From the NCBI RefSeq assembly GCF_040219335.1, contig NZ_JAVJSQ010000023.1, forward strand, positions 1 through 64,000: 64,000 nt of DNA. The letters run 5' to 3'. Below, piece by piece: positions 4,941 to 64,000 of this stretch (position 1 is its first letter; each line of letters opens with the position of its first letter). The stretch is from Gimesia sp. (GTDB lineage: Bacteria > Planctomycetota > Planctomycetia > Planctomycetales > Planctomycetaceae). The translations under genes were made by a program, and so were the position numbers. The notes beneath the pieces are model-generated. The model was not told where the DNA came from, searched no databases, and was given only the letters and a program-made list of their open reading frames with translations.

Positions 4941-5034
4941 GAGAAGCAAAGCTGCTTCCTCTCTGAATGGAGCCAGATTACAATATTCAAATGTTCTCGA
5001 TTCGTATCGACTCACAAGCGCAAAGGTCAGCTAC

Positions 5035-5571: not shown

Positions 5572-5808
5572 AGTGTCTCTTCAGCCCCATACATTCCATC
5601 AATTTCAAAGCAATCCTAACATATCCAGCACGTGCCCTTCTGAATACCTGCCTGTAACTTCTTCCTTGCAATAGACCGATTTCACATATACCATATCACT
5701 GATGCAAGGTTGCTGAGAGTCCCACCTGATTTTCCTGCCTTCTAAGCTTCAATGTTGCTGTCGTAATGTTTCTCGCCCGTATTACTCCATTTAAAGTGGA
5801 ACAGCGCT

Positions 5809-47350: not shown

Positions 47351-48605
47351 GGCCAGGGGGCTCCGATAACCACATGTGCAATAGTCTGTTGCGCATGTCG
47401 ATGATACGTGTGACGTGGCTTAGTGCTTGATTACGCGTTCTTTCAGCAGCCATGAAATAGTCCGCAATCTCTTGTTGTTCATCGAGTGAGGGAACAGGGA
47501 GCTGTGTCCCTTCAACATCAAATCTGCTTATGTGGGGAAGATCAGTTCCCTGCTGAACACGTTGCAGCTGCCACTTGAACGATACTGAGTGAATAAACGC
47601 CCAGAGGTAATCAGCGTCGAGATCGGCAGAGAGCTGAAAACGTCCTACGCGCTGCAAAAGCAGTGCAGGCAAGTCGTCGTCGCTTATCCGCGCAATCTTG
47701 AATCCACTACCGACAAATGGGCGGTCCATTGCAATGACAATGTCGCCCGACTCTAACACGTACTCTGCGACTTCTTGACGACGAGCCGTAGACCAATACC
47801 GCGTATCTTCCTCTGCCCAGTTGAAGCTGTTCACGCCTACGTTCGAGCAGCGAAGGAGTCGGTCACCACTTGTGGCGAACTCTGCGCTCTTGAACGGAAA
47901 ACCTGATTGAAGTTTGCAGCAATCACCAAGTCGACGAAGCGATTCCTTTGCGCGGAGTTCGGCCTGAGTGGGGGTTACCTTGAATCGAAGTGGGTCGATT
48001 GGGAAGAATGTATTGGATAGCACGCGGAGCATTTTCCATGTGTCATCCGCCACTGAGAGAAAGGATTCAGCCGTTTCTACGACAGCCCGAAGTATACAAG
48101 CGATTCGCTTCTGCTCATCAATAGGTGGGAGGGAAAACTTCTGTATGCGTAGTGTTTTCCAGTTGATCGTGGGCGAAAGTGAGCCGACCGAGATGTCTAC
48201 GGCTCGATCCATGAACATGTCACTCTGCATGAAGAAGGGTAAGAACTCAGGGACAATGAAATCTGCTTTGGCACGCAATACCATTGCATGGGCAGAACAG
48301 ATGCCAGCACGGTCGGCAACTGCGAGCTTACGTTGATAGGCACGACGTTTGCCGAAGATAACGTCGCCTTTCTGGAATCCTAGCTTCTGTCCGATGACAT
48401 CGTCTGGGGTTCCCCATCGACGAATCTTCAGCGACTCGGGGTCGAGATGCTCCAGTCCGACATAGACTCCCAAGTCTGTTTCCGCCGGATTAACGCGATC
48501 ATTGACGTTTCGTGCGATCTCATCAAAACGAACCATCCGCCAGCCTTCGGGCAGCTTGCCATTGTCGGAAATGGATTCGATTGTGGTATCTGATTTAGTC
48601 GCCAA
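47340..48605 (-). CDS. hsdS: Type I restriction specificity subunit HsdS
   Basis: A 421-residue protein that recognises the bipartite target sequence. It has two target-recognition regions separated by conserved helices: GKLPEGWRMVRFDEIARNV at the start, then SLPPIDEQKRIACILRAV ending the first half, and PVPSLDEQQEIADYFMAAE near the C-terminus. This is the typical S subunit repeat. It overlaps hsdM1 (48595-48605) by 11 bases, so the genes are translationally coupled. Confidence 0.93.
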   Translation of the reverse strand: MATKSDTTIESISDNGKLPEGWRMVRFDEIARNVNDRVNPAETDLGVYVGLEHLDPESLKIRRWGTPDDVIGQKLGFQKGDVIFGKRRAYQRKLAVADRAGICSAHAMVLRAKADFIVPEFLPFFMQSDMFMDRAVDISVGSLSPTINWKTLRIQKFSLPPIDEQKRIACILRAVVETAESFLSVADDTWKMLRVLSNTFFPIDPLRFKVTPTQAELRAKESLRRLGDCCKLQSGFPFKSAEFATSGDRLLRCSNVGVNSFNWAEEDTRYWSTARRQEVAEYVLESGDIVIAMDRPFVGSGFKIARISDDDLPALLLQRVGRFQLSADLDADYLWAFIHSVSFKWQLQRVQQGTDLPHISRFDVEGTQLPVPSLDEQQEIADYFMAAERTRNQALSHVTRIIDMRNRLLHMWLSEPPGHVQ

Positions 48606-50100
48606 GCCCCGCCTCCTCTAAAGTCGTGAACAACGCATCCATCGACTGCCGCAACTCACGCGAGCTGGTCTGCCAACTCTCGATCGCCTCGTCCAATGAC
48701 GGTCCCTGATCCATCTCACGGTTACCGTTCGTCGACTCGGGACGAACGTAGAGAGGGATACTCAGATTGTGCTGCTGGCTGCGAATTTCATCGAGCGTAA
48801 CCAGCCGCGAAAATCCCTCCTGGTCTTCATCGCTGTTGTACGCCGAGACGATGCGTTGAATGTGGTCATCGGTCAGGAAACTTTGAGCCCGCTCGCGAGT
48901 GACTTCGCCCACCGCATTGATGAACTGAATCTTGCCTCTCCGTCTCTTGGGTTTCTTCATCCGGCAGACGACGACGCAGGCTTCCATTGGCGAGTTGTAG
49001 AACAGGTTCGGCCCCAGCCCGAGCACGCAGTCGATCACATCGTGCTCGACCAGCTTTTTTCGCATCTCGGTTTCTTCGTTGCGGAACAGCACACCGTGCG
49101 GAAATAGGATCGCACAGCGGCCGGACTTGGATTCGAGGCTTTGAATGATGTGTTGCCAGAAGGCGTAGTCGGCTCGGCCTTGTGGCGGGGTGCCGTAGAT
49201 GTTACGTCCCCAAGGATCGGCACTGAACGCGGCCCGATCCCATTGCTTGATGGAATACGGTGGATTGGCCAGACACACATCAAACTGTTGCAGCCGATCG
49301 CCGCTGACAAACTGTGGGCTGCCCAGCGTATCGGCCCGTTGAATCTGAAAGTCCTCGATACCATGCAGGAAGCAGTTCATCCGGGCGATGGCGGAGGTCA
49401 TCAAGTTTCGCTCCTGCCCGAAAAGTTTGAGCATCCGCCATTCCTTGTTCTGCCGCCGCAGATGGGTCACGCATGACAGCAACATGCCGCCGCTGCCGCA
49501 GGTCGGATCGTAAATCGACTCGCCCGCCTGTGGTTGGAGCAACTCGGTCATCAGATGTACGACAGTGCGGTTCGTGTAAAACTCGGCTGCCGTGTGCCCC
49601 GAATCGTCGGCAAACTTCTTGATCAAGTATTCGTAACCAACGCCGAGTTCATCCTCGGGACAGTTGGCCACCGACAGCATGAGCTTGCTGAAATGCTCGA
49701 TCAGTTCCTTGAGCATGTGATCCGGCAACCGATCCTTGTTGGTCCACTGAGCATCCCCAAAAATGCCAAACAGCTTTTGCGGGTTCGCCGTCTCGATGGA
49801 CCGCATCGCATCCTGAAGCGCCTTGCCGACGTTCTTGCTGACCTGCCGAGTCTGCGACCAGTGAGCGTCCTCGGGAATTTGAAACCGGTGATTCTCCGGG
49901 AACAGAGCATACTGCTCGTCACCGCCGGATTCCTCCAGTGCCAACGCGACTTCCTCGTCATAGACATCGCACAGCCGTTTGTAGAACAGTAGCGGGAAAA
50001 TGAACTGCTTGTAATCCCCCGCGTCGATGTACCCGCGCAGCAATACCGCCGCGCCCCAGAGATAGCTTTCGAGTTGAGATTGGGTGATGTGTTTGTTCAT
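48595..50100 (-). CDS. hsdM: Type I methylase subunit HsdM (copy 1)
   Basis: A 501-residue N6-adenine methyltransferase subunit. The N-terminal helical domain begins QLESYLWGAAVLLRGYID; the SAM-binding motif is YDPTCGSGGML and the catalytic motif NPPY. A TAAEFYTNRTVVHLM segment replaces the usual GEFYTPR. It is about half identical to the second M gene at 50581. Together with the R and S genes it forms the core of the restriction system. Confidence 0.93.
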   Translation of the reverse strand: MNKHITQSQLESYLWGAAVLLRGYIDAGDYKQFIFPLLFYKRLCDVYDEEVALALEESGGDEQYALFPENHRFQIPEDAHWSQTRQVSKNVGKALQDAMRSIETANPQKLFGIFGDAQWTNKDRLPDHMLKELIEHFSKLMLSVANCPEDELGVGYEYLIKKFADDSGHTAAEFYTNRTVVHLMTELLQPQAGESIYDPTCGSGGMLLSCVTHLRRQNKEWRMLKLFGQERNLMTSAIARMNCFLHGIEDFQIQRADTLGSPQFVSGDRLQQFDVCLANPPYSIKQWDRAAFSADPWGRNIYGTPPQGRADYAFWQHIIQSLESKSGRCAILFPHGVLFRNEETEMRKKLVEHDVIDCVLGLGPNLFYNSPMEACVVVCRMKKPKRRRGKIQFINAVGEVTRERAQSFLTDDHIQRIVSAYNSDEDQEGFSRLVTLDEIRSQQHNLSIPLYVRPESTNGNREMDQGPSLDEAIESWQTSSRELRQSMDALFTTLEEAGLGD

Positions 50101-50116
50101 TCGATCTAACTATGAG

Positions 50117-50581
50117 TCACGACAAGAGCGCAACTTTGGTGTTGCGAAGTGCGACGTATTCTTGGGACGTTCGTATCGTCTGAATCCTTTTCTCGTTGTC
50201 TTGAGGAAACACTTCAACGATCATTAGTTTGTCAATGTCTTCGTTTTGCAGTACCAGCCACCATTCCGGCACTGGAGTTCCGTTCTCGAAACCGTCCTCA
50301 TCACCACCTGGAATAAAGGGAGCACGAACAACTGAGTCTGGAGAAGTGGGTGGTTCGATAACGTAGGCAGCAAGAATCGGATCACCAGTTTTGTGTCCAC
50401 CCCAGCCAGTCCAACCCCCCGGCGAGTGACTAAAAAACGTGGGTTCTGAATACTCAACAAGCTCCAAGCGTCCATTTTTACTGCTGTGAAACCAGCAGCC
50501 TTGAAATCGCGCTGGAACTTCATTGGCCGCTTGGAGCGCTAATGCTTCTTCGGCAGTTCCGTTCAATGATTGTCTGGGCAT
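50117..50581 (-). CDS. Small protein of unknown function between the two hsdM genes
   Basis: A 154-residue soluble protein, not recognised. It contains many aromatic residues (WFHSSKNGRLELVEYSEPTF, GGWTGWGGHKTGD), an acidic GGDEDGFENG loop and a C-terminal helical stretch. Its ATG overlaps the stop of the upstream M gene by one base (TGATG), so it is translated with it. A role as a regulator or accessory subunit is possible but unsupported. Confidence 0.75.
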   Translation of the reverse strand: MPRQSLNGTAEEALALQAANEVPARFQGCWFHSSKNGRLELVEYSEPTFFSHSPGGWTGWGGHKTGDPILAAYVIEPPTSPDSVVRAPFIPGGDEDGFENGTPVPEWWLVLQNEDIDKLMIVEVFPQDNEKRIQTIRTSQEYVALRNTKVALLS

Positions 50582-52077
50582 CAAACTAATCCATCCTTAC
50601 CAAGAAGTTCTTTCAATCGATCCTCGGCTTCATACGCTTGTTCCAAACTGGTCTTCAGGTTTGCCATGGCCTCCGCGACGCTGATAGCCTCCTCCTCAAC
50701 AACCGGCTCGACGTAGCGTGGAATGTTGAGGTTGAAGTTGTTCTCCTTGATTTCATCCAGCGAGACCAGCCGTGCGACGCCTTCGACGTCTTCGTGGGCT
50801 TCGTACCACTGATAGATTTGATCGACGTGCTCGGGTAGCAGTTCGTTTTGAGCACGGCCTTTCTTGAACTCGCGGGAGGCGTCAATGATGAGCACTTTTT
50901 TGCGGTACTTGGCCGGTTTGCGTTGCCGGAAGACCATGATGCACGCGGCCAGCCCGGTGCCGTAGAACAGGTTTTGCCCAAGGCCGATGACGGCATCGAG
51001 GCTGTCCATGCCGAGTAGCTTCTTGCGAATCTTCCCTTCGGCCCCCATGCGGAACAGTGCTCCGTGCGGAAGCACAACGGCCATGCGGCCCGATTTGGGA
51101 GCCATTGACATGATCATGTGCTGAACCCAGGCGTAGTCGCCGCTCTTGGCTGGGGGCATCCCGGCGAAGTTGCGGCCGTAAGGATCGCTGGTCCAAACGT
51201 CATCGCCCCACTTTTCGAGCGAGAAGGGCGGATTGGCGATCACGCAATCAAACGTGGCAAGGCTATCGCCAGTGTGGAAGGCCGGCTGTCGGAGGGTGTC
51301 GCCGCGCACAACCTGGAAGTCTTCCACGCCATGCAGGAACAGATTCATGCGGGCGATGGCCGAAGTGGTCAGATTCTTCTCCTGGCCGAACAGTTTTCCC
51401 CAGAGGGTTTTGATGTTGCCACCCGCCTCGCGAACGTGATGAATCGCCTCGATCAGCATACCTCCGGTCCCGCAGGCCGGATCATAGATCGTTTCGCTTT
51501 CACGGGGATCGAGGATACGAGCCATCAGGTTGACCACGCTTCGTGGGGTGTAAAACTCCCCCGCCTTTTTATTGGTGGCGTCAGCGAACTTCTTGATCAG
51601 GTACTCATAGGACTGTCCGAGTACATCGGCGCGGGCGGCTTTGTTGCCTAGCGGTAACTTGGAGAAGTGTTCGATCAGGTCGCAGAGCAACGCATCGGAT
51701 AGACGGTCTTTGTTGGTCCATTGAGCGTCGCCGAAAATGCCGTACAGCGTATCGGGGTTGGCTTTCTCGATTTCGCGCATCGCCCGTCCCAGGGCTTTGC
51801 CGACGTTGGTGGTCTTTTTGCGGACATCGTCCCAGTGGCAATCGTCCGGAATTTGAAAGCGGTGGTTCTCTGGGAACAGGGCGTATTGTCGATCCCCGTC
51901 TGATTCTTCCAGGGCATCAGCAAGTTCTTCATCGTAGACATCGGAGATACGCTTGAAAAAGAGTAGCGGGAAGATGAACGTTTTGAAATCAGCAGCGTCA
52001 ACTGGTCCACGAAGAATGTTTGCGGCTTCCCAGAGGTGATTCGACAGTTGATTCAGTTCCAGCCCGTCTTCGCTCAT
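50581..52077 (-). CDS. hsdM: Type I methylase subunit HsdM (copy 2)
   Basis: A second N6-adenine methylase subunit of about 498 residues. It has the SAM motif YDPACGTGGML, the canonical GEFYTPRSVV segment and the catalytic motif NPPF, so it appears active. It is first in the operon and is paralogous to the other M gene. The start could be the ATG at 52077 or a GTG at 52089; neither has a strong ribosome site. One operon with one S but two different M subunits is unusual. Confidence 0.92.
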   Translation of the reverse strand: MSEDGLELNQLSNHLWEAANILRGPVDAADFKTFIFPLLFFKRISDVYDEELADALEESDGDRQYALFPENHRFQIPDDCHWDDVRKKTTNVGKALGRAMREIEKANPDTLYGIFGDAQWTNKDRLSDALLCDLIEHFSKLPLGNKAARADVLGQSYEYLIKKFADATNKKAGEFYTPRSVVNLMARILDPRESETIYDPACGTGGMLIEAIHHVREAGGNIKTLWGKLFGQEKNLTTSAIARMNLFLHGVEDFQVVRGDTLRQPAFHTGDSLATFDCVIANPPFSLEKWGDDVWTSDPYGRNFAGMPPAKSGDYAWVQHMIMSMAPKSGRMAVVLPHGALFRMGAEGKIRKKLLGMDSLDAVIGLGQNLFYGTGLAACIMVFRQRKPAKYRKKVLIIDASREFKKGRAQNELLPEHVDQIYQWYEAHEDVEGVARLVSLDEIKENNFNLNIPRYVEPVVEEEAISVAEAMANLKTSLEQAYEAEDRLKELLGKDGLV

Positions 52078-52540
52078 AAATTGCTTCACTTAGCTTGCTT
52101 ACTGTATGATAATGTGGATGAAGATTTCTCAATCTCACCTAGAAACGTATTCAAATCTTGTCTTATGAACACTCAATATCCATTGGCAGGATTTCGGTGC
52201 ATACTGGTTTTTCTTTGTTTAGCCCTTCCAAAAAGGGGGGTTTGAGGAGTCCAAGAACCTCAGCGCCTTCCGACTTTATCACATTCTCACTGACTTTTTC
52301 ATCCGACTAGGCTCCCAATAAATGTAACCCGTTTCGGACACTATCATTTTGTTCCTTAGTCTATCAAAGTCTGCAACAAATCGAAACAGACCGATCATCG
52401 ATTTGGAGGGGAAAGAACGGCGTATGAGTACAGTGGGACAGATAATGTCTACCTACCTTGCCCATGTCCGGTAATGGATCTGATGAGACAATTATGTAGC
52501 CAATTTAGTCAAAAGTCGCCTTGTGAATAATTGCTGATCC
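52078..52540. other. Promoter region of the restriction operon
   Basis: About 460 bases between hsdM2 and the end of the helicase gene, both on the minus strand. It should hold the promoter for the R-M operon, but no convincing promoter boxes are visible. A weak hairpin, CCCTT/AAGGG, lies around 52220-52240 and might end the helicase transcript. Confidence 0.35.
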
Positions 52541-55500
52541 TTACCGTAGCGTTGCCATGACGCCGGCAAGTGGAAAGTGAATCCACGTAGATTCAATAAC
52601 TTCTCCCGCCGATGTCATCACTTCACGATATGCGGCGATTTGTTCCGCAAATTGAGCAGCCTTCGCAGCGCAATGCTGTCGTCGTATGGGCGCACTTTTG
52701 TGGTCAATTATTACTACTTTGCCGCTTGGAAGTTGTAGCACCAGATCGATCGTGCCATTCCAGTCTCCGCCGGCAGCCCGGGGGCCGCTCGCGGCTACTT
52801 CGACATGCCAAAACGCCCCGGGATATTGCTCCTTAACCCACTGACAAAACCTTTCACCGGAAGAAACGAGGACCGAAGGTGCAAGAATACCGGTTACCGA
52901 GAATGCAGAAAGACAACGTTCTGCCACGAGTATTTTCGCACTATCGGACAGCGATAGCATTGATGGAAGGGCGGCGAGATAGCTGTGCACCGCGTCGCCG
53001 ATAGCAGCATACTGATCCTCATCTGCTCCCGTTGGGAAATGTGACGGTCCTGGCAGATCCTCAGTTTCAAACGTGGTATCCCCTGATTCTATAGTAGCTT
53101 GGCTGGGAGAATGAAAGCGGGGAGCAAATTCCGGGGGATTTGTGATTCCAGACAACGCCAGCCAGCGTTCTTTGTGTTTTGTGTCGAAGCGACAGTTGTC
53201 GATCATATCGGCATCAAGTCGTCGCACGACGAGCGTCGTGTCAATTCCGTCCAGTTCGTGTTCGCCTTCGCCGAGACTGCAGTCGAGCAAGACATCTACG
53301 GAGTCGAGCTTTGCTAGCCAGGCGTATTTATTGTCTCGATGTGCAAACACGAGCTTCTGCCTCGCTCGCGTGCATCCCACATAAAGGAGCCGCAGATTCT
53401 CGTTAGTCTCACGAATAGTTTGCGCTTGCCCCTCAGGCGAGACCAAAGCGTCATCCTCAAGACCGCTCCCGTTACGTAGCCCACCGAATGGACCATCGGT
53501 TTTACTAAAGGGCCACGTCCAAGATCGCAGCGTCCGCCCTGACAGTGGTGATTCATTACCTTCACCGCCACCTGTAACAACAGGCGACCACATGTCGGGA
53601 GATCGGTCGGAGTTCAGTCCACTCAATACAACGACTGGCCATTCGAGTCCCTTGGCTGAATGGTAAGTCATCAGAGTTACGGCGTCGTGTCCCTGCGGTG
53701 GGTAGCGAAGATCGAGTTCATCTGCCTGGAGCTGTTCGAGATACAGAATAAATCCACTTAAGGTCGCCGCTTGACCACTGTCTAGTGCTACTTCCTCATA
53801 TTCGTGTACATGTCGGAGCATGGAGTCGAGGTTCGAGCATCGACGTGCGGGATCACCCCATCGTTGGACGAGTATCGGTAAATCGAGTGATTCAATGACT
53901 TGTTGAACAATTACAGTTGGCGAGAGGAGCGATCGATCAATCTTTTCAATGCGAGAAAATCTTGCGTCGTCGCTCCAGGGGATGTAGCTATCAGGCGACA
54001 ACTCATCTTCATCACCGTCCTGCGAGTTATGAACAGCCTGCAGACGCTCTCTAATCCAGTCTGGTGTGTCCTTTTCTGGGTCGCCCAACAGATGAAGTAT
54101 CGTTGCTGCAGCAAGCGAGTCAGTACGGTCGGCGACTAATCGCAGACCAGCCAGGACAATTGCCCCTTCCCGCGTGGATAATAATCCGGGGCTTTCAAGC
54201 AGATAGGGAATCCCAAGGCAATCAAAAGCGGTGGCGACGGGTGGCAGCAACCTGTTCGTTCGTTCAATAACCACAATATCCCCAAATCGAACTCCTTCTC
54301 TCTTTAACTTCGCGATTCCACAGGCAAGTGCTGTAGCGTCGTCCGTTTGATTCCGCGTGTCGTACACCCATCGCTCAACTCCACGCGATTGGGCCGGCCT
54401 CTTCGGATTCTGTTTGGCATCTGTTCCAAATATCGGCTCGAACAATACACTAACCAACTGAACCAGGCCACGTTGGCTGCGGTAGTTGTCGGGAAGTTCA
54501 GTCCGTGTGGCGTCGGATGAATTGTTCCAGATGTCGTCGACCAACTCTGGGTCTGTATCGCGAAAGCCATAAATCGCCTGCTTTGGATCACCGACCCAGC
54601 GGTTCCGCGGTGAGAATTGTCGTAATTGCTGGAAGATTGCGAGTTGCAATGGATTGGTGTCCTGGAATTCATCAACCAGGACAAGGTCGAAGTCTTCAGC
54701 TAAACGAGCGGCGAGAGTTTCATTCTCAAGAAGTCGCAGCAATAGAATTTCAAGGTCAGTAAAGTCAACCAGGCCGCGTTCCATTTTGTATTCCGTGTAT
54801 TGCGACTCAAGACGAATCGTTTCCTGGGCCAGAAGTGACGAGAATTCTCTAATATCCGACTGTAACTTAGTATTCTGCCGCACTTGGGATGCATGGTTTC
54901 TCAACCCATCAAGCATTCCATCGGCACCTGAAGTCGTGCCGGCTTTAATTCGGCTTGCAAACAGGTAGCTGCCCCAAAGCGGTATCTGTTTGGACTTGAG
55001 TTGGCGGAGCTTCTGTCGCGCACCGTTCGTGTTTTTCTGCGTGTCGTTGACCAGTGCGTCAATGTTCGTCAATGCCTGTTCGGCGAGGTCATACAATTGA
55101 TCAATCGGCGTTTCAGATCCAGAAATTCCAGAGGGCGCAAGGAGCTCGCAAACGCGGTCGGCACTGACCGCCATTTGAGAAGTAAAGTCGTCATTGCTGA
55201 TCACATTGCCTCGCTTTGCCGCAAGCAGATCCAGGATACGACGATGAAGGTCTGTAATTCCCAGTCGCTTGGCGCGGTCAGCGAAAGGTTGCCAGGCTGT
55301 GAGCGGTATGTTGCCAAGCAAATCGCTCAGTGCCCGGTCACTTGCGATTTCAGTGACGACTTCAAGTCGTGGTGACAACCCCATCTCGATTGCATACCGG
55401 GACAAGAGCCGGTGTGCCACGCTGTGCACCGTACCGATGGCTGCAAGATCCAGCCGATCGGCATTTCGGTGTGCTACCGCTTGCTCATCGGTTGCTGAAA

Positions 55501-55672
55501 GTAATTGAGCCTGAATTCTTCCTTTGAGTTCAGCAGCTGCCTTCTTCGTAAATGTTGTTGCCAGAATTCGTGCTGGGTCTAATCCCCCTGAAACTGCATT
55601 GGCAACTGTTTTACAAAGATCGGTCGTTTTACCTGACCCAGCACCTGCGCGGACGAGTTCAAGTAACTGCAT
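52541..55672 (-). CDS. AddA-like UvrD helicase-nuclease
   Basis: A 1,043-residue superfamily 1A helicase with a C-terminal nuclease. Motifs in order: Walker A AGAGSGKT (9-16), ATTFTKKAAAELKGRI, DEFQDTNPLQ (Walker B), WVGDPKQAIYGFRDTD, LPDNYRSQRGL, TYHSAKGLEWPVV and LYVGCTRARQKL. The C-terminal PD-(D/E)xK nuclease has GDAVHSYLAAL, GTIDLVL and VVIIDHKSA. This is the AddA plan, but slightly shorter than usual (about 1,200). The ATG at 55672 overlaps the upstream gene's stop (TAATG), so the two subunits are coupled. It probably resects double-stranded ends; a role in defence is inferred from position. Confidence 0.9.
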   Translation of the reverse strand: MQLLELVRAGAGSGKTTDLCKTVANAVSGGLDPARILATTFTKKAAAELKGRIQAQLLSATDEQAVAHRNADRLDLAAIGTVHSVAHRLLSRYAIEMGLSPRLEVVTEIASDRALSDLLGNIPLTAWQPFADRAKRLGITDLHRRILDLLAAKRGNVISNDDFTSQMAVSADRVCELLAPSGISGSETPIDQLYDLAEQALTNIDALVNDTQKNTNGARQKLRQLKSKQIPLWGSYLFASRIKAGTTSGADGMLDGLRNHASQVRQNTKLQSDIREFSSLLAQETIRLESQYTEYKMERGLVDFTDLEILLLRLLENETLAARLAEDFDLVLVDEFQDTNPLQLAIFQQLRQFSPRNRWVGDPKQAIYGFRDTDPELVDDIWNNSSDATRTELPDNYRSQRGLVQLVSVLFEPIFGTDAKQNPKRPAQSRGVERWVYDTRNQTDDATALACGIAKLKREGVRFGDIVVIERTNRLLPPVATAFDCLGIPYLLESPGLLSTREGAIVLAGLRLVADRTDSLAAATILHLLGDPEKDTPDWIRERLQAVHNSQDGDEDELSPDSYIPWSDDARFSRIEKIDRSLLSPTVIVQQVIESLDLPILVQRWGDPARRCSNLDSMLRHVHEYEEVALDSGQAATLSGFILYLEQLQADELDLRYPPQGHDAVTLMTYHSAKGLEWPVVVLSGLNSDRSPDMWSPVVTGGGEGNESPLSGRTLRSWTWPFSKTDGPFGGLRNGSGLEDDALVSPEGQAQTIRETNENLRLLYVGCTRARQKLVFAHRDNKYAWLAKLDSVDVLLDCSLGEGEHELDGIDTTLVVRRLDADMIDNCRFDTKHKERWLALSGITNPPEFAPRFHSPSQATIESGDTTFETEDLPGPSHFPTGADEDQYAAIGDAVHSYLAALPSMLSLSDSAKILVAERCLSAFSVTGILAPSVLVSSGERFCQWVKEQYPGAFWHVEVAASGPRAAGGDWNGTIDLVLQLPSGKVVIIDHKSAPIRRQHCAAKAAQFAEQIAAYREVMTSAGEVIESTWIHFPLAGVMATLR

Positions 55673-58359
55673 TATGTTATCTCCTGAATTCCGCAGATGC
55701 TCTTGAAATTGCAATACTTGCAAACGGATTGAGTTTGGTTGTCTTTGAGATTTGTCTCCAGCACGATTGTTGCGCCATCAGGCCATTCGGAAGACTCTTG
55801 CAGGGGACGTGCCGGAACAGGGGCATCGGTTGTCAACCAGTCGTCCGCCTTACCGATCGCATCCGAAAATTGCTGCCAAACCATTTGAATAGCTGGTGCA
55901 TTGATGACCGCACGATTACCATCGCCCAAGACTGGGCTTTCCGATGGTGTATATAGCAGTCCGTCAGAGAGCACTAGATAGGCAACACCCGGAAACCGGC
56001 CGCTTGCTGTCGATCTGCCATAAGCGTAGGTTGCAAGCTGAACCGCCTTACCGTCCTCTATCAACGAATAATACTTGGAACGGCCACCGTACTTGAAATC
56101 GATAACGGCCTCTTCGCCATCTGCTCGTTGTGCAACACAATCAATCCAGCCATTCAACGATTTACCAAACGCATCGCCTGACAATTCAACCTCAATGCCA
56201 GTAATTCGATAACCGCCACTGGCTAGTGCGCCGACGAATACACGCGTCGCGTTCTCAATCTCACTGCGGAGCTGTTGACACTCAAAGTATTTGCCTGGCT
56301 GAGCAAGCGGGGCCGCATCGAGGGGAAGTCTTTCGTCGAATATTGCGACGACGGCAGCAACGGCGTCTTCAACCGCTGGCAGATCGCCACCCGCTCCGAA
56401 TACGTGTTCAAGAACACTATGGCAGAAAGTTCCCTTGAGCTGGAAATCTGCTGGAAGTTCGGCGATGGGACTGGGCCGCAGTTTGGCCTGGTAGGTTAAT
56501 GTCCATTTCAATGGGCAGCTGAGCCGATCTTGGAGCGCAGTTGCCGAGACAGTCTCGCGGTCACGCAGCAGTTTCGCAGGGATGTTCCAGAGAGGGCGTG
56601 GCGGTTGCGGTGGTTGAATATCAACGTCCTGACATTCAAATATGAACGGAGCGAGGGCTGCTGTTTCGTCATCCGCGATCAGGTCCTCAATGACCAACGG
56701 CTGTTCGACGTCTTGCTCTGGAAGGGTCTCACGAATCGCCAACCAGATGGGATGCCAGCGTTTCTCAAGGTCCTGAGGTAGCAACACTGCGAGGAATGCT
56801 TCTTTAACAAAGCTGTAGCCATGTGCTTCGGCAGAACGCAAGGTTGACAATGCATGGCTGCCGTCGTCTAGATCGATCCCCGCATCGCGCAGTTCACGAA
56901 GTTGATTTGTTGACCAGCGCGAACCGGTTGTGTCCCCCGTGCCTAAGCCTAGCCAGATAAGTCGATCACATGGCCCAGAAATTTCTGCGAGTGAGCGTAC
57001 GCGGATTGGACCGCCTTGCGCTTCGATACAAGATGTCGTTTCAACGCCGTTGGCGAGAGCTTCTTCCATAAGGCGGGCCAGTTGCGGATCAGAGAGTAAA
57101 ATCCCCTGACTTTCGGCCAACTCCCCCAGCAATGATGCCTGACCTGCCGCAATCTGGAATGCGTTAATCAACTCGGTATTCGAATCAGCGTCTCTCGCTA
57201 GCAATGCAACTTGCCCGGAAGCCCACTGGGAAACTAGGGCACAGCGTGATCGTATTAAGCGTGACGGAGCATCGGTTCCTCTTGGAGTCCGGTCGCAAAA
57301 CAACCACGCATCAAGACGTTTGCGAAGTTTGTGTTCAGGATCATTCTCTGCTTCGCAGAGTTCCTTTACCGCTTTTTCCCACTGGCTGCTTCCAAGGCCC
57401 GGTTCCTCTGTCAGAGCGTTTGCTAATATTGAAGCGGCTTTTCGCGGAAGCGGCAGAATGGGCAGTGTCAGAAAGTCGAGCAATGCTTGTGGATCAACCG
57501 GTTCCCAGCAAAGAGCAAGACTCAATGGCAGGACTTGCAGAACCGGGTGTGCTCGTGACCATGATGTTGCTCCGGTGGTTGGCAGCCCAATTCGGTTGAG
57601 GCATGCGTCGAGACGCGATGCCAGATCGTCATCTTCACAACAAATAACCGTGGTCGGTAATTTGTCTGGAGCCAACGCCAGAACGGCAGCAACGAACTCT
57701 ACCGACGCGGATGCACTTCGAGTGTGAACATAACGAAAGGTTGAGTCTTGTTCAATTTCTGCAGCTGGGCCACCACGCACGACGGTTTGAGCCGAATACA
57801 ATGCAGATCCTTCAGCAGCATGAGGTTGTAGCTCCGGCGGCTCAACAACTGTTAGTTCAGCAAGAACCTTGCGCCACAATGACGGCCATGTATCTGGCGC
57901 ATCATGCAGTACACAACGATGAGGCGGTAGAACCTGTCCTGCCTGCAGGGCATCAAGCACTCGCTGCAAGCGTTCGGCTTCACCGGGGAATGTCATAGTA
58001 CGCCCGGTTACTGCTCTGGCAAGGTCACGAACAACATCAGGGAGCGATTCCGAATCAACTTCATCCCAACCTGACATAAGCAACTCATCTCGCCGTGCAA
58101 GAAGTTCAGAGGCTGTTGCCCAGCGATCAGCCTTCATACTGGCGGTGATTACAGACTCGGTTACCGTATCGAGTGCAGCCGCGTACTCAGTGATTCGATC
58201 TGCCTTGTGGATCGGAGGGACCGGAAGTCCTAACTGCGTTTCAAGCCATTTCAGTAAGGTTTCTGGGCCACCATGAAAATCATTAACTGATCGACGCATC
58301 CACTCAGGTGAAATTACTCTGGAGGTAAGCCGAACCGCTAATTGTGTGTGTTCTAGCAT
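55672..58359 (-). CDS. AddB-like nuclease subunit with Fe-S cysteines, no Walker motif
   Basis: An 895-residue partner of the downstream AddA-like protein. The C-terminal nuclease has a histidine motif TFCHSVLEHVF (His647), Asp740 in GWID and Asp754-x-Lys756 in VIDFK. Four cysteines, Cys615 (SCPLKW) and C880-x2-C883-x5-C889 (CKYCNFKSIC), match the iron-sulfur staple of AddB. No ATP-binding motif is visible in the N-terminal half, and the protein is about 270 residues shorter than typical AddB. The gene order B then A, with TAATG overlap, mirrors addBA. Confidence 0.82.
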   Translation of the reverse strand: MLEHTQLAVRLTSRVISPEWMRRSVNDFHGGPETLLKWLETQLGLPVPPIHKADRITEYAAALDTVTESVITASMKADRWATASELLARRDELLMSGWDEVDSESLPDVVRDLARAVTGRTMTFPGEAERLQRVLDALQAGQVLPPHRCVLHDAPDTWPSLWRKVLAELTVVEPPELQPHAAEGSALYSAQTVVRGGPAAEIEQDSTFRYVHTRSASASVEFVAAVLALAPDKLPTTVICCEDDDLASRLDACLNRIGLPTTGATSWSRAHPVLQVLPLSLALCWEPVDPQALLDFLTLPILPLPRKAASILANALTEEPGLGSSQWEKAVKELCEAENDPEHKLRKRLDAWLFCDRTPRGTDAPSRLIRSRCALVSQWASGQVALLARDADSNTELINAFQIAAGQASLLGELAESQGILLSDPQLARLMEEALANGVETTSCIEAQGGPIRVRSLAEISGPCDRLIWLGLGTGDTTGSRWSTNQLRELRDAGIDLDDGSHALSTLRSAEAHGYSFVKEAFLAVLLPQDLEKRWHPIWLAIRETLPEQDVEQPLVIEDLIADDETAALAPFIFECQDVDIQPPQPPRPLWNIPAKLLRDRETVSATALQDRLSCPLKWTLTYQAKLRPSPIAELPADFQLKGTFCHSVLEHVFGAGGDLPAVEDAVAAVVAIFDERLPLDAAPLAQPGKYFECQQLRSEIENATRVFVGALASGGYRITGIEVELSGDAFGKSLNGWIDCVAQRADGEEAVIDFKYGGRSKYYSLIEDGKAVQLATYAYGRSTASGRFPGVAYLVLSDGLLYTPSESPVLGDGNRAVINAPAIQMVWQQFSDAIGKADDWLTTDAPVPARPLQESSEWPDGATIVLETNLKDNQTQSVCKYCNFKSICGIQEIT

Positions 58360-58661
58360 GTGTTGTGGCCTTTAAGTTATATGAACTGGTTGCCAGTACG
58401 GTTCAATCGTTTAACAATCTATCAAAGTCTTCAGTTAATGGAAATCGACAAAGGGAATAACTGCTGAAACCAATGAAAATAGCTCCATTATGGATATTTT
58501 TTGACTTGATAGATCAACTGGAACCACATCCAACATGTGGTTTATTCATAAGCGAGAATGTATCTGCGTGCTTAGCAAACACTAAATTATTCCGGTTTCC
58601 GTGTCACAATACATGAAGGCAACGCCTTTAACTATCAGTGATCGGTACCGATGTTTTCAAC
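58360..58661. other. Divergent intergenic region with inverted repeat
   Basis: Between the AddB-like gene and the + strand small gene. It contains the 8-base inverted repeat AACCACAT (58522-58529) / ATGTGGTT (58535-58542) with a 5-base loop. This could be an operator or a weak terminator. TTGATAGATCAA at about 58505-58516 is another short dyad. Confidence 0.4.
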
Positions 58662-58710
58662 CGCCCTGGAACAGTCTCTCTCAAGTCTGTTTCAGGGCGT
58701 TTTTTATTTC
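58662..58710 (+). terminator. Intrinsic-terminator-like hairpin (element 1)
   Basis: CGCCCTG pairs with CAGGGCG, reinforced by AACAG/CTGTT, followed by TTTTTTATTT. A very similar sequence recurs at 61095. It lies just before a small gene, like a leader attenuator. Confidence 0.8.
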
Positions 58711-58761
58711 CAGACCGTTAACTCGAACAGTCCATGTCCCCTGTTCTTAGAAAGGAGCGGT

Positions 58762-59076
58762 ATGCTACAGAGGCAAGAAATCATGTTGATCAGAGCTGCC
58801 CTGCAGTTCTGGTATGAAGAAATGGATCTCGAAGATGCAGACATGTTCGCGATTTATTCTGGTGGCCCCAGAATCAAGCCGCCCTGGCGAAGGGAAGACA
58901 TCCAGCGGTTGCGTCAGCAGTTGATCGCGGCACGACTGCGATTTGCTGTCTGTCAAAGTGATGCGAGCAGGGTCAAGATTCCCCGCCTGTTTGACACTCC
59001 CGCAGCAGCAAATCAGGCGAAGACGAACGACACTGACCAACTGGGGGTGGTCCTGGTTGATACTCCAGCAGTCTGA
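58762..59076 (+). CDS. Small protein, unknown function
   Basis: A 104-residue basic and acidic helical protein, not recognised. MLIRAALQFWYEEMDLEDADMF near the start and EDIQRLRQQLIAARLRFAVC in the middle suggest a helix bundle. The AAAGGAG site at 58751-58757 fixes the ATG at 58762; the open frame from 58651 runs through the terminator and is not translated. It is convergent with the HTH gene. Confidence 0.7.
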   Translation: MLQRQEIMLIRAALQFWYEEMDLEDADMFAIYSGGPRIKPPWRREDIQRLRQQLIAARLRFAVCQSDASRVKIPRLFDTPAAANQAKTNDTDQLGVVLVDTPAV

Positions 59077-59082
59077 GTTCCC

Positions 59083-59304
59083 TCAAACCCCCTCCATCAG
59101 CTCGGCCAGGCTGATGCCGAGTGTCTCGGCAATCCGCTCGATATTCCGTAGAGACAGATTCCTCTCTCCCCGTTCGATCCCGCCGACGTAGGTCCGATCC
59201 AGCTCACAAGCGTAGGCAAAATTCTCCTGTGAGTAACCTTGTTCTTTGCGCAGTTCCCGGACCCGCTGTCCAAATCTCACCAGTATTTCTGCTCGTTTTG
59301 CCAT
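59083..59304 (-). CDS. XRE-family HTH protein, R-M controller (C-protein) type
   Basis: A 73-residue DNA-binding protein. The HTH is [37 protein letters not shown], matching restriction controller proteins ([13 protein letters not shown]). These bind their own promoter to delay restriction until methylation is done. The ATG at 59304 is preferred over the upstream ATG at 59319. A C-box-like operator lies just upstream (59322-59356). No type II R-M genes are adjacent in the window; the neighbours are the AddBA-like pair and a small gene. Confidence 0.88.
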
Positions 59305-59321
59305 GCAGACATTAAACACTT

Positions 59322-59557: not shown

Positions 59558-60301
59558 ATGCACGAAGAAAGTCACAAAACGATTGAAAGTCCCCAGAGCC
59601 AGTGGTGGCTGGCAAAGAATGGTGTGGCGGAAGGACCTCTGTCTCACCGGGAAATCAGTGATGCCTTGAAGTCAAACCGCATCAGATCGGCTGATTATGC
59701 CTACTCATCTGTTGAAAAGGAGTGGAAGCCGTTGTCTGCCTGGAGCGAGTTTGAATCGGGAACTGAAGAATCTGCTCTGCAACCTCCTCCGGTTCCCCCT
59801 GTGGACAGTTATACTGTCGAGCCCTTGCTCACCAATCCCAGGCTGCCCGCCATGGCGAACTGGATCTGTATCTACTCGCTCCAGATCTCTCCCTGGCTCT
59901 GGTGCCTCTATACCTTTTCAGAAATCATCAGCGGGACCGCGCTAAAAGAAAAGGCTCCTCTCATGGGTGTGGAGGCCTTGGCGATGATAATCAGCATGCT
60001 CGTTTCACTGGGGGTAACAATTTCACTCTTCATCGGTGGGATTCGTCTCCGAGCGTTAAGCCGGTCAGGTCCGAATATCATTATCCTGAGTATCGTAGTC
60101 GCAACTGCGGCCCATTTACTGTTGTCTCTCGGGGTGATGATGATCATTGCAATGACCGATCAAAACAGCTTCACCTCAAAAACCGTGGCAGTCGAGTTAA
60201 TCGACTATTTCATACTAATTGTCGCACTGTGCGAAGGGGCGTTTCTGCTCACCTCACTTTTCTGGCTGAGGCGTAATGCCCGTTTTCTGCCACTCGCTTA
60301 A
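59558..60301 (+). CDS. GYF_2-domain membrane protein
   Basis: A 247-residue protein. An N-terminal GYF_2 domain (WWLAKNGVAEGPLSHREIS, then WKPLSAWSEF) is followed by a proline-rich linker and about four membrane helices in the C-terminal half. GYF_2 domains are thought to mediate protein contacts next to membrane proteins. The next gene has the same layout. The function is not known. The start ATG at 59558 has only a weak ribosome site. Confidence 0.8.
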   Translation: MHEESHKTIESPQSQWWLAKNGVAEGPLSHREISDALKSNRIRSADYAYSSVEKEWKPLSAWSEFESGTEESALQPPPVPPVDSYTVEPLLTNPRLPAMANWICIYSLQISPWLWCLYTFSEIISGTALKEKAPLMGVEALAMIISMLVSLGVTISLFIGGIRLRALSRSGPNIIILSIVVATAAHLLLSLGVMMIIAMTDQNSFTSKTVAVELIDYFILIVALCEGAFLLTSLFWLRRNARFLPLA

Positions 60302-60350
60302 TGTACCAGCACATTAAGCCCCGTAATGATTGTCTTGACCTTGAAAGAGA

Positions 60351-60896
60351 ATGAGCTTCATGACCGAATATCCAGTCCCCGAAAACCGGGAAGCCACAGA
60401 GTGGCGATTTGATGACCAGGGCCTGCTTGCAGGCCCTTACTCTTATGACGAACTCAGGGACTATGTAGAGCTGGACTACATCCAGCCAGAAACTGAGATC
60501 ATTCATGAGGATGGCCGGAAATATCAGGCATTTGAGATCGGATTGTTCCCCGGATTCGTTCCTGCAAAACCAGACCCTGCCGACGAGAACGAAAACATGA
60601 TCGCACCGTTACCGGGCTGGAATGTTCTGGTGGGAGTGGTCGCACTGACTCTGGTCTCAATGAAAATTGCCCAGAGGGTGCCGGAAGACCACTGGTTCCA
60701 CGGCGTGCTACCGTTCTCGTTGACCATTGGTGGTTTCGCGATGGTTTTAATCGGCTGTTATACCGGTTTGACGGGGATTGCTCACAACTTCCGGGGGATA
60801 CCTAAATACCGTCCTGTCTTTTACAGAGTTGGTGCTGTGATCGTGATTTACCTGGGCATTTTATTCTTGGTTGCAGGAACGAAAGATCTATTTTGA
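60351..60896 (+). CDS. GYF_2-domain membrane protein (second)
   Basis: A 181-residue protein with a GYF_2 domain (WRFDDQGLLAGPYSYDELRDYV and YQAFEIGLFPG) followed by three membrane helices, starting at about residue 93 (WNVLVGVVALTLVSMKIA). It is 49 bases after the first GYF_2 gene, suggesting one operon. A second in-frame ATG lies at 60360. The pair may be partners or the result of duplication. Confidence 0.8.
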   Translation: MSFMTEYPVPENREATEWRFDDQGLLAGPYSYDELRDYVELDYIQPETEIIHEDGRKYQAFEIGLFPGFVPAKPDPADENENMIAPLPGWNVLVGVVALTLVSMKIAQRVPEDHWFHGVLPFSLTIGGFAMVLIGCYTGLTGIAHNFRGIPKYRPVFYRVGAVIVIYLGILFLVAGTKDLF

Positions 60897-61299: not shown

Positions 61300-61668
61300 A
61301 TGAGTCATATTGTGGAAATTAAAACCGAAGTCCGGGACGAGGCAGCCATCAGTGCCGCCTGTCAGCGTCTCAAGCTGGAGGCACCAACGCAGGGGACGGT
61401 AAAGCTTTTCAGTGACTCTGCCACCGGTACGATCGTCAAACTACCTGGCTGGCGATATCCGGCTGTGTTCGACACACAATCCGGCCAGGCTCGCTTCGAC
61501 AACTTCGAAGGCCGCTGGGGCGAGCAACATCAACTGGATCGCTTCCTGCAGGGGTATGCCGTTGAGAAGACACGCATCGAAGCGCGTCGTAAGGGACACA
61601 CGGTGACCGAGCAGGCTCAGGCTGACGGCTCGATCAAGTTGACGGTCCAGGTAGGAGGTGCTGTATGA
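61300..61668 (+). CDS. DUF1257 (Ycf35-like) protein
   Basis: A 122-residue protein of the DUF1257 family, which includes the plastid and cyanobacterial Ycf35. It has the MSHIVEIKTEVRDEAAISAAC start, a VKLPGWRYPAVFDTQSGQ core and a C-terminal GSIKLTVQVGG strand. The function is unknown. Its stop overlaps the next start (ATGA), so the three small genes here are translated together. Confidence 0.85.
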   Translation: MSHIVEIKTEVRDEAAISAACQRLKLEAPTQGTVKLFSDSATGTIVKLPGWRYPAVFDTQSGQARFDNFEGRWGEQHQLDRFLQGYAVEKTRIEARRKGHTVTEQAQADGSIKLTVQVGGAV

Positions 61669-61862
61669 ATCGGACGATCGAGATCACAGTCACCCCGGAC
61701 GGACAGACTCGTGTGGAGACCAAAGGCTTTTCCGGAGCCGGCTGCCGCGAAGCCAGCCGGTTCATTGAGGAAGCCCTGGGGAAACGGGCCAGCGAACGGA
61801 CCACGGCGGAGTTCTTTCAGATCGCTGATGAACGGCAACGCCTTCAGGAAGGAGGTGGTTGA
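61665..61862 (+). CDS. DUF2997 protein
   Basis: A 65-residue protein with the DUF2997 pattern: IEITVTPDGQTRVETKGFSG, then CREASRFIEEALG and RTTAEFFQ near the end. The family is found beside DUF1257 in cyanobacteria and here in the same order. Its start is preceded by GGAGG at 61654-61658 and overlaps the DUF1257 stop; its own stop overlaps the next start. Confidence 0.85.
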   Translation: MNRTIEITVTPDGQTRVETKGFSGAGCREASRFIEEALGKRASERTTAEFFQIADERQRLQEGGG

Positions 61863-62089
61863 TGACCAAGGTCCGTCGACAGATCCAACGGCAGCAACGC
61901 GAAGATCCGGCTGTCGAAGCACGCCGCATTGCCCGCATTCGTAAGAAGTATGATGATCTGACCAAGGAGCAGGAGGCCCTCAGTCGCTGGATGACACGCC
62001 TGAAACGTGCCTTTCACAAGGTAGAGAAGCTTCAGGAGCGGATCGCCCGCATGGAACGCCAGTTGGCTGACCTGGAGGATCGTGGCTGA
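61862..62089 (+). CDS. Small basic coiled-coil protein
   Basis: A 75-residue protein rich in K, R and E. It is almost certainly a coiled coil (KKYDDLTKEQEALSRWMTRL, VEKLQERIARMERQLADLED). GGAGGT at 61851-61856 and the TGATG overlap with DUF2997 fix the start at 61862. It probably works with the two preceding proteins, perhaps as a structural or adaptor part. Confidence 0.78.
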   Translation: MTKVRRQIQRQQREDPAVEARRIARIRKKYDDLTKEQEALSRWMTRLKRAFHKVEKLQERIARMERQLADLEDRG

Positions 62090-62131
62090 CAGTCAGGCTC
62101 TGCACATTCAATAACCATTTGTTTTATCAAT

Positions 62132-62156
62132 GCCCCGGCTTCGGCTGGGGCTTTTT
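62132..62156 (+). terminator. UUCG-loop terminator between the small genes and ATPase
   Basis: GCCCC pairs with GGGGC around C(TTCG)G, followed by TTTTT. It should stop most transcription before the ATPase gene, so that gene may have its own start or depend on readthrough. Confidence 0.8.
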
Positions 62157-62183
62157 CATTTACGCACTTAATAAGGAGTCGCT

Positions 62184-63680
62184 ATGCCGACAATTACTTC
62201 ACTAACCCAGAAACTGGCTGAACATGTCGCGGCCTGTTTCCCGGGGCTGTGGATTCAGTCCCACGAGCATCAGGATGCTCTGACGGAAATTGCTCAGCTC
62301 TGCCATGATTCTCAGTGGCAGCTGGCCACCTGGGACATCGACACAGGACTCATCGTCCCCGGCCAGACAGAGCAGGGGGGAAGCAGCAATGATCCGCTGA
62401 CTGCCATCAAGGCGATCAATGCCCTGGCCACGCCTGAAGGAACAGCCATTCTTGTGCTGCAGAACTTTCACCGATTCCTGCAGTCCGCAGAAGTGGTCCA
62501 GGCGTTGTCTCAGCAGATCAACACCGGCAAGCAGAACCGGGCCATCGTGATCGTGCTGTCGCCCGTTGTGCAAATCCCCACCGAGCTGGAACGCATGTTT
62601 GTCGTGATGGAGCACGATCTCCCCCACCGGCAGGAACTGGAAGAAATCGCTCGTGGGATTGCCACGGAGGAGGGGGAGCTGCCCGCAGAAGCCGAGTTAC
62701 AGGTGATTCTCGATGCGGCAGCCGGACTCACCCGGATGGAAGCGGAGAATGCGTTCAGCCTGTCACTGGTTCGGGACGGGAGAATCACTGCAGATGCCGT
62801 CTGGGAATTAAAGACCCAAACGCTAAAAAAAAGTGGTCTGCTCTCGCTGTACCGCAGTAACGATGACTTCAGCAGCCTGGGAGGTCTGGTAGCTCTCAAG
62901 GCGTTCTGTAAACGGGCCATGCTGCATCCGCAGCGTGGGAATCCACTGAAACGCCCGCGTGGGGTCCTGCTGTTGTCCCCACCTGGTTGTGGCAAGTCAC
63001 AGTTCTGTAAGGCACTTGGCAGGGAGGTCGGTCGCCCTGTCCTCAATCTCGATATTGGCAGCCTGATGGGTTCACTCGTAGGGCAGTCGGAGGAACGCAC
63101 ACGAGAGGCCCTGAAAGTCATTGATGCAATGGCTCCCTGTATTGCCATGATCGACGAAGTCGAGAAGGCCTTTGCCGGGATGAACGGTAGTGGCGACTCT
63201 GGAGTCGCATCGCGAATGTTTGGTGTGTTTTTGTCGTGGCTCAATGATCATCAGTCCGACGTGTTCGTGGTCTGTACTGCGAATGATGTTTCCAAGTTGC
63301 CTCCGGAGTTCAGTCGGAGTGAACGCTTTGATGGGGTGTTTTTCCTGGACCTCCCCGATCGGGAAGAGAAAGACGCGATCTGGGCACTCTACCGGGATCT
63401 GTTCGAGATCGACGCGGACCAGGCCGCTCCCGATGACACGGACTGGACCGGTGCAGAGATCAAGTCCTGTTGCCGCTTGGCAGCCTTGCTTGATCTGCCT
63501 CTGCGTCAGGCCGCTCAAAACGTGGTTCCCGTCGCGGTGACTGCAGCGGAATCGGTCAGTCAGTTACGGACCTGGGCCGGTGGTCGCTGTCTTTCGGCGA
63601 ATCAGCCTGGTATTTACCGTAAGCCGCAGCAACGAGCCCGCTCGCGTCGCAGCGTGAATCGAGAAGCGTCCAAGAACTAA
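62184..63680 (+). CDS. Ycf46-like AAA ATPase
   Basis: A 498-residue protein. The N-terminal half is a Ycf46-type regulatory region (residues about 1-200, including FHRFLQSAEVVQALSQQI). The AAA core has Walker A PPGCGKS (266-272), a following GRPVLNLDIGSLMGSLVGQSE segment and Walker B IAMIDEVEKAF (around 324-325). RSERFD near 378-383 is likely the arginine-finger region. Ycf46 proteins of plastids and cyanobacteria are AAA ATPases of unclear role. The context (Ycf35-like, DUF2997) supports a joint function. The C-terminal tail is basic. Confidence 0.9.
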   Translation: MPTITSLTQKLAEHVAACFPGLWIQSHEHQDALTEIAQLCHDSQWQLATWDIDTGLIVPGQTEQGGSSNDPLTAIKAINALATPEGTAILVLQNFHRFLQSAEVVQALSQQINTGKQNRAIVIVLSPVVQIPTELERMFVVMEHDLPHRQELEEIARGIATEEGELPAEAELQVILDAAAGLTRMEAENAFSLSLVRDGRITADAVWELKTQTLKKSGLLSLYRSNDDFSSLGGLVALKAFCKRAMLHPQRGNPLKRPRGVLLLSPPGCGKSQFCKALGREVGRPVLNLDIGSLMGSLVGQSEERTREALKVIDAMAPCIAMIDEVEKAFAGMNGSGDSGVASRMFGVFLSWLNDHQSDVFVVCTANDVSKLPPEFSRSERFDGVFFLDLPDREEKDAIWALYRDLFEIDADQAAPDDTDWTGAEIKSCCRLAALLDLPLRQAAQNVVPVAVTAAESVSQLRTWAGGRCLSANQPGIYRKPQQRARSRRSVNREASKN

Positions 63681-63708
63681 AAACCACTTTTTAAATTCAA
63701 ATCCACAA

Positions 63709-63755
63709 AAGCCGGTGCGTGACGAAAAGTGTCGTCATTCACGGGCTTGTTTTGT
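63709..63755 (+). terminator. Intrinsic-terminator-like hairpin after the ATPase gene
   Basis: AAGCC...GTGACGA pairs with TCGTCA...GGGCTT, then TTTTGTTT. It is followed by another gene start with GGAG. Confidence 0.7.
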
Positions 63756-63771
63756 TTCTGGAGATACTGAT

Positions 63772-64000
63772 ATGACCACATTACTCGAAGAGGCTCCCCC
63801 TGAGACTACCATCACTCCCAGTGAGCGACTGCGATCTTCCATGGCGGCGGCCCGGCTGAGCTTTACCTGGCTGGGAGTGAGAAAGTCGCTCACGGCCCAG
63901 CAGAAGAACCAAGCCGCCGATTCCTTCGGTGCCGAAGGGAAATACCTGTCAGCCGGTAAGAAGCTGCTGGATACCCGTCATGCCGCCTTCAAAGCCGTCA
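63772..64000 (+). CDS. Partial gene at the window end, unknown function
   Basis: An ATG at 63772, preceded by GGAG, opens a frame that reaches the window end without a stop (76 codons seen). The protein begins MTTLLEEAPPETTITPSERL, then MAAARLSFTWLGVRKSLT and a lysine-rich helix. It is not recognised. It follows the Ycf46-like gene and may belong to the same module. Confidence 0.7.
   Translation, partial: MTTLLEEAPPETTITPSERLRSSMAAARLSFTWLGVRKSLTAQQKNQAADSFGAEGKYLSAGKKLLDTRHAAFKAV

Follow-up and report, generated by a model that had tools for sequence, protein, structure and literature searches.

The window analysed here, a stretch of 64,000 nucleotides from the planctomycete Gimesia sp. (contig NZ_JAVJSQ010000023.1, denoted C23), ends in a run of genes that begins at position 61,300 and that we find to be the start of a larger module. 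This module has a core of five genes, encoding a DUF1257-like (Ycf35-like) protein, a DUF2997 protein, a Ycf46-type AAA ATPase, a DUF3150-like protein (denoted D315) and a protein denoted E82. In planctomycetes the core usually has one of two exchangeable cassettes behind it, one with a DnaN-like clamp and one with a ubiquitin-like (Ub) protein and its predicted partners. We propose that the genes at the end of the window are part of a modular, ATP-driven remodelling system of mobile-DNA-like character, which would be directed by its cassette and would handle protein-DNA complexes; we hold this reading with a probability of roughly 0.47, slightly short of even odds.

An earlier note on this DNA, made from the sequence alone, took the small genes and the ATPase for one ATP-driven machine. 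We found that bacteria other than phototrophs also keep these genes together, which is what one machine would lead one to expect; the proposed complex of their products, and the roles of the small proteins in it, we infer. Among 51 DUF2997 loci of other planctomycete genomes a DUF1257 gene lies nearby in 49, in line with the pairing of the two families mentioned in that note, an AAA gene in 45 and both in 43, so that the neighbours in other planctomycetes are not unrelated. A search of genome contigs with D315, in which the best 80 of 211 relatives were analysed (including L180, titled 'Emcibacter sp.', and L139, titled 'bacterium', neither titled as a planctomycete), showed the five-gene core to be complete in 34 of the 44 loci whose contigs extend 5 kb or more upstream and 1 kb or more downstream, and E82 is present in 70 of the 71 D315 loci that have 1 kb or more of downstream sequence. 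D315 itself occurs in 12 of 246 sampled planctomycete genomes, 11 of these being among the 16 that belong to the window's class. The six sampled genomes of the same genus carry 6, 7, 2, 1, 0 and 0 copies, and one of the zeros (G227) may reflect a contig break, as the module start stands at a contig edge there (L066). Planctomycete families outside the window's class mostly show the gene order AAA, DUF1257, DUF2997, without D315 and at times with E82 (L082, L094, L098).

The core is also present on plasmids, in a phage isolate and on viral contigs. All five genes were found in 18 of 23 viral contigs, whose viral status rests on their source collection, in the phage isolate Tunturi_3, and in two plasmid stretches of Candidatus Manganitrophus, where their order is AAA, DUF1257, DUF2997, D315, E82. 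Rhizobium phage L338C and Aeromonas phage HJ05 carry the triad of AAA, DUF1257 and DUF2997, in the former close to genes for DnaB and DNA polymerase I. One viral contig (L197), with a Ub cassette and genes that read as recombinases, may be an integrative element. On the Thermovibrio plasmid pTHEAM01 (L110) the DUF1257 and DUF2997 genes are opposite in strand to the AAA gene, and the triad therefore need not form one operon.

The genome of the window contains six copies of the module. Three of them (on C23, which is the window copy, C18 and C4) carry the gene of the 447-residue clamp, and the other three (C20, C3 and C13) have instead genes for a Ub-like protein, a protein of about 360 residues, a JAB protein and a ThiF protein. 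Where 4.5 kb or more of downstream sequence is available (51 D315 loci), the Ub cassette is present alone in 19, the clamp alone in 19, the two together in 3 and neither in 10. A D315 tree was built from 87 rows; within the range L117-L196 it leaves out proteins outside 300-340 residues and the cassette-less loci with under 4.5 kb downstream. On this tree 12 changes are needed to account for the Ub and clamp labels, and well supported branches force 6 or more of these, against 24 changes for shuffled labels (quick method); the cassette labels are therefore clustered, yet have switched several times. The Ub set is followed by a clamp gene on the same strand, at most about 1 kb away, in L153 and L159, and in L155, where a Ub-like gene was not detected, the clamp gene starts about 40 bases past the ThiF gene. 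The patchy copy number and the repeated switching of cassettes point to mobile DNA. Serine or tyrosine recombinases were found in 33 of 111 loci; among well flanked loci they accompany 8 of 14 with Ub, 2 of 14 with clamp, 4 of the 9 that lack either cassette and 1 of the 2 that carry both. Within the window's genome they stand near the C20 and C3 copies, and none was seen in the stretches read around C23, C18, C4 and C13.

The evidence for the clamp comes from profiles and from a structural model. A profile of 24 relatives of the 447-residue protein had DnaN as its best PDB match (2.1e-8), and its top 24 matches were all beta clamps. The three-domain clamp fold was seen on an AlphaFold2 monomer model of L118, a relative of the window copy (pLDDT 86, pTM 0.74), which matches DnaN structures with a Foldseek E-value of 6.1e-22 and a TM score of 0.77 by target length. 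Like DnaN in this fold, the module protein differs from it in being diverged (14-19% identity to the DnaN fold matches listed), in the long C-terminal helix of the model and in being encoded by the module. Its prediction as a diverged DnaN-like sliding clamp is thus solid on the combined grounds of profile and model. Clamp loci have further company of their own: a PD-(D/E)XK nuclease gene accompanies 13 of the 26 clamp-only loci, as against 3 of 22 Ub-only loci and 3 of 29 with neither cassette, and a 178-residue protein is encoded in 18 of the 26 against 2 of the 22. A gene of the ATP-dependent DNA ligase type is present in 7 of 111 loci (L149, L162, L163, L171, L174, L183, L190), and in the first four of these it lies between the AAA gene and D315.

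The Ub cassette encodes a Ub-like protein (74 residues; longer and tailed in C20), an E2-like/zinc-finger fusion (the protein of about 360 residues), a JAB protein and a ThiF/E1 protein, and the complete set of four genes was seen in 23 of 25 Ub loci. The ThiF protein matches PF00899 at 7e-26, above the cut-off. The JAMM motif HxHx7SxxD is found in all 37 JAB proteins of at least 180 residues, and the match to Prok-JAB (4.4e-4) lies below the family cut-off; judged by these matches and motifs, the putative E1 and JAB are well supported. The E2-like domain is followed, in the same protein, by a C-terminal series of CxxC pairs, usually ten in number. We were not able to obtain a significant Foldseek match with a model of this protein, and a second look (VIA) was dominated by its helical hairpin; similarly, a PDB profile search found no Ub-type relative of the Ub-like protein among solved structures. 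RING-type E3s are said to occur in bacterial Ub-type operons, reportedly as described by Burroughs in 2011. Upstream of DUF1257 a protein of about 190 residues with a coiled-coil look (L014:407-976 and relatives) is encoded in 11 of 22 Ub-only loci as against 1 of 26 clamp-only loci; its start is lipobox-like by motif.

Proteins of the Ycf46 type have a single AAA domain with Walker A and B motifs, preceded by a half without Walker A. The ATPase of the module is built in this way, with one Walker-bearing AAA domain in its C-terminal half; the relatives from phototrophs with which it was compared are those of cyanobacterial plasmids. It matches PF00004 at 4.9e-27 and phrog_8638 at 4.2e-95. Among 68 sequences strict patterns recovered Walker A in 64 and Walker B in 62, and Walker A was found in the N-terminal half of none of the 68. 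The two halves align weakly (E 0.008, probability only 5%), and the N-terminal half is perhaps a degenerate AAA domain. Among AAA proteins of solved structure it comes closest to NVL, AFG2 homolog A and Cdc48/p97, with a best E-value of 1.6e-35. An SGI1 antitoxin is placed in the SpoVK/Ycf46/Vps4 group (PMC10954446).

The layout described in the earlier note, with three overlapping small genes, a Ycf46-type AAA gene and a further gene, was borne out by the open reading frames (Table 1). An ATGA overlap at 61665-61668 joins the DUF1257-like and DUF2997 genes, and a TGATG overlap at 61860-61864 joins the latter to the coiled-coil gene. Its family labels fared less evenly: those of DUF2997, which clears the curated PF11211 cut-off (62.6 against 24.1 bits), and of the AAA protein stand, but the first protein just misses the curated PF06868 cut-off (21.5 against 22.2 bits). 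We name it DUF1257-like because of this score and because the family profile finds annotated DUF1257 proteins, with 8e-19 for that of L107 and 1.6e-13 for that of L115, and proteins with this annotation on Candidatus Manganitrophus plasmids are among its matches. D315 is about 34% identical to annotated DUF3150 proteins of plasmids of the same Candidatus genus. Pfam gave no informative match for F70, E82, D315 or the 190- and 178-residue neighbours, and profile searches found no solved structural relative of DUF1257 up to an E-value of 5 and no convincing one of D315. The slot of the third gene is variable, holding a coiled coil, a TOPRIM-like protein or nothing depending on the module copy. 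The TOPRIM-like label is given by motif, with no Pfam match. The gap between the coiled-coil and AAA genes measures 94 bases and contains the terminator-like hairpin, which recurs in each of the five same-genus copies that have a coiled-coil gene (L009, L010, L011, L060, L062); we did not find it in L068 or L071, both of which have this gene, and by count the terminator-like sites of this stretch are not above chance (4 against 2.8 +/- 1.8 in shuffles).

Table 1. Features of the window copy; positions are those of the window and continue along contig C23.
Feature	Length (residues)	Position	Strand	Remarks
DUF1257-like (Ycf35-like) gene	122	61300-61668	+	open reading frame; PF06868 21.5 bits; same place in relatives
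DUF2997 gene	65	61665-61862	+	PF11211 3.2e-17, 62.6 bits
Coiled-coil gene	75 (from ATG)	61862-62089	+	optional third gene
Terminator-like hairpin and T run		62132-62151	+	between coiled-coil and AAA genes
Ycf46-type AAA ATPase gene	498	62184-63680	+	PF00004 match
DUF3150-like gene (D315)	314	63772-64716	+	open at window end (64000)
E82 gene	81	64729-64974		beyond window
F70 gene	67	65066-65269		beyond window
DnaN-like clamp gene	447	65352-66695		beyond window
Small membrane protein gene		about 66775-66957		beyond window

Past position 64,000, where the earlier note had advised looking, the remainder of D315, E82, F70, the clamp gene and a small membrane protein gene were found. Contig C23 stops at 67540, shortly after the last of these. 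Its final 139 bases (67402-67540) are the same as the ends of contigs C43 and C4, and C18 stops at the matching place; the end is an assembly break at a repeat, and the window copy is not traceable past it. On the upstream side two neighbouring genes (59558-60896) encode proteins with N-terminal domains of the GYF_2 type, the second under the Pfam cut-off, and relatives of these genes recur next to other module copies. A small gene with an XRE regulator on the opposite strand (58651-59319) also travels with the module; the pair lies 2 kb upstream at the window copy, and between the AAA gene and D315 in C20 and others.

Several known systems share parts of the module. A D315 homologue is found among the neighbours on PRTRC plasmids (hhalign 99.4%, 7e-22), the ThiF of the Ub cassette is homologous to the PRTRC ThiF (hhalign 98%, 2e-13), and on the Manganitrophus plasmid CP114559 the core is followed downstream by ParB and PRTRC C, B, A and ThiF, a ParB gene being present on Manganitrophus plasmids. 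In contrast, the Ub-like, E2-like and JAB proteins have no detectable match to PRTRC C, B and A in profiles of two or three sequences. On the PRTRC plasmids of Paraburkholderia and Cupriavidus the D315 homologue stands between a different, shorter AAA gene and a VWA protein gene, and neither DUF1257 nor DUF2997 was found in the stretches of these plasmids that were read. Membership in PRTRC was rejected, as only ThiF matches, with D315 as a neighbour. The joint occurrence of Ub-like, E1-like, E2-like and JAB genes recalls BilABCD (reviewed in PMC11354881), the type 6 operons among the bacterial Ub-type systems of Iyer 2006 (PMC1779556) and the E1/E2/JAB genes of CBASS; the planctomycete cassette differs from all of these in that its E2-like domain is fused to the CxxC run, in its place behind the AAA/DUF1257/DUF3150-like core, and in being exchangeable with a clamp cassette. 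Among the literature matches listed we found no paper that connects genes of the Ycf35/Ycf46 type with DUF3150, with a clamp or with a Ub cassette, the pairing of Ycf46 with a clamp not having been searched, and the term 'DUF3150' was absent from the literature searched, the scope of which mostly excludes subscription papers.

We propose that the AAA protein would act as a hexameric unfoldase or segregase, with DUF1257, DUF2997, D315 and E82 as its adaptors, and that the exchangeable downstream cassette would set its target. The clamp cassette would bring the machine to DNA, and the Ub cassette would tag proteins for it. The purpose would most likely concern protein-DNA complexes in the replication, repair or recombination of mobile DNA; work on mobile DNA is favoured because the core is present on plasmids, in a phage and on viral contigs and because clamp, nuclease and ligase genes are among its neighbours. 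Several observations weigh against this proposal. At the window copy the terminator-like hairpin parts the small genes from the AAA gene and, being conserved in the genus, it implies that the first three genes and the AAA gene may not always share a transcript. Many planctomycetes have the triad but neither D315 nor a cassette, and 10 of the 51 D315 loci counted above likewise have neither cassette. Neither the window nor the two contig ends that possibly continue it showed a recombinase of the families looked for, and the case for mobility is weaker in the clamp type because recombinases are rare near clamp loci; the window copy may nevertheless lie on a mobile element. The same-genus clamp copies have no nuclease gene beside the clamp. 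Finally, the E2 and Ub assignments are of moderate strength.

Is the module itself an anti-phage system, as the earlier note's suggestion of an accessory or defence role would have it? The AAA core would then sense or extract phage complexes, and the clamp with its nuclease, or the Ub cassette, would be the effector. Swappable effectors are typical of defence systems, and the surroundings are consistent with such a role. The window copy adjoins a block of genes on the reverse strand (42329-58359) whose sequences suggest type I restriction (HsdR, two HsdM, HsdS), a protein of the AlbA/Schlafen type and a helicase/nuclease pair resembling AddAB, labels that come from reading the sequence, with a profile match for the nuclease only; the block lies immediately upstream of the stretch that the window has in common with contig C18. 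Near the C4 copy, on its upstream side (L011, reverse complement 2448-5998), an OLD-type ATPase/nuclease and a UvrD-like helicase read as Gabija-like. In the flanks of 15 modules of other genomes, 61 hand-picked proteins of at least about 300 residues (from 109 open reading frames) matched 255 PADLOC families, led by type I methyltransferases, DrmA/DrmD, BrxH and Mad2, against 73 for 61 controls hand-picked from 261 open reading frames. This contrast is rough because the scan counts families and not proteins, and the controls too match defence models (GajB, PD-T4-6). When DUF1257, DUF2997, AAA and D315 were scanned, no PADLOC system was found for these four, the matches being weak (AAA to IetA, 2.4e-12) or very weak (D315 to WGR_XIII, 2.4e-4); the E1 and JAB of the Ub cassette match generic PADLOC models. 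Moreover, a phage isolate and viral contigs carry the core, and islands collect varied cargo. The flanks thus support a defence-island address and not a defence function: the location suggested earlier stands, and we consider a module that is itself anti-phage unlikely, if still worth weighing beside remodelling on mobile DNA.

To our knowledge, Ycf35 and Ycf46 have no clear function. DUF1257, DUF2997 and a Ycf46-type AAA protein are shared with the Ycf35-Ycf46 genes of cyanobacteria and plastids, and also occur on a Geminocystis plasmid; the planctomycete module differs from those of phototrophs in being multi-copy and in carrying D315, E82 and the cassettes. Red algal and diatom plastid genomes keep Ycf35 and Ycf46, DUF2997, Ycf35 and fed7 form a cluster in Synechocystis with the ferredoxin gene adjacent (PMC4284462), and DUF1257 and DUF2997 serve as ecotype predictors in Prochlorococcus (PMC13131479). 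A housekeeping role of the core as an assembly or redox chaperone, of the kind presumed for the phototroph proteins and with an incidental presence here, would fit this ferredoxin cluster and the triads that lack D315 and cassettes in many planctomycete families. We find it hard to credit for the module at hand, which is multi-copy and patchy in its genus and has plasmid and phage relatives. Nonetheless, because of the cassette-free triads and the ferredoxin gene beside the Synechocystis genes, the oldest role of the core may not involve mobile DNA.

It is very unlikely that the Ub cassette represents a ThiS/MoaD-type pathway for sulfur carriage or cofactors that merely travels with the AAA core: its ThiF does resemble thiamine and molybdopterin adenylyltransferases, and ThiS is the best family for the Ub-like protein (E 0.016, below the cut-off; in a ThiS profile comparison E 0.002, probability 13.6%), but the four genes stay together in nearly all Ub loci, including an E2-like/zinc-finger protein that would be unexpected in cofactor synthesis, and the Ub-like proteins end in IEG(A/G) followed by 0-35 residues, unlike the ThiS-family proteins of the same genome (L240, L242, L244), which finish in a terminal GG.

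Remodelling of protein-DNA complexes on mobile DNA, the reading that we prefer, can be taken further by analogy, and we offer this extension as an improbable one. The module might correspond, on bacterial mobile DNA, to the PCNA-ubiquitin-Cdc48 axis of eukaryotes, and in it a Cdc48-like segregase would clear or reset DNA complexes, aimed by a dedicated clamp or by Ub-like tags. In L153, L155 and L159 the Ub-like tag would then act at the clamp itself, and the plastid and cyanobacterial Ycf35 and DUF2997 proteins would be adaptors that come from one and the same ancestral machine.

The partners of the core, namely D315, E82 and the clamp or Ub cassette, give testable hypotheses for Ycf35 and Ycf46, and the module is small enough for reconstitution. 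If a clamp and a Ub-like system truly share one AAA core, these planctomycete loci would provide a bacterial setting for the eukaryotic-type link between clamp, ubiquitin and segregase.

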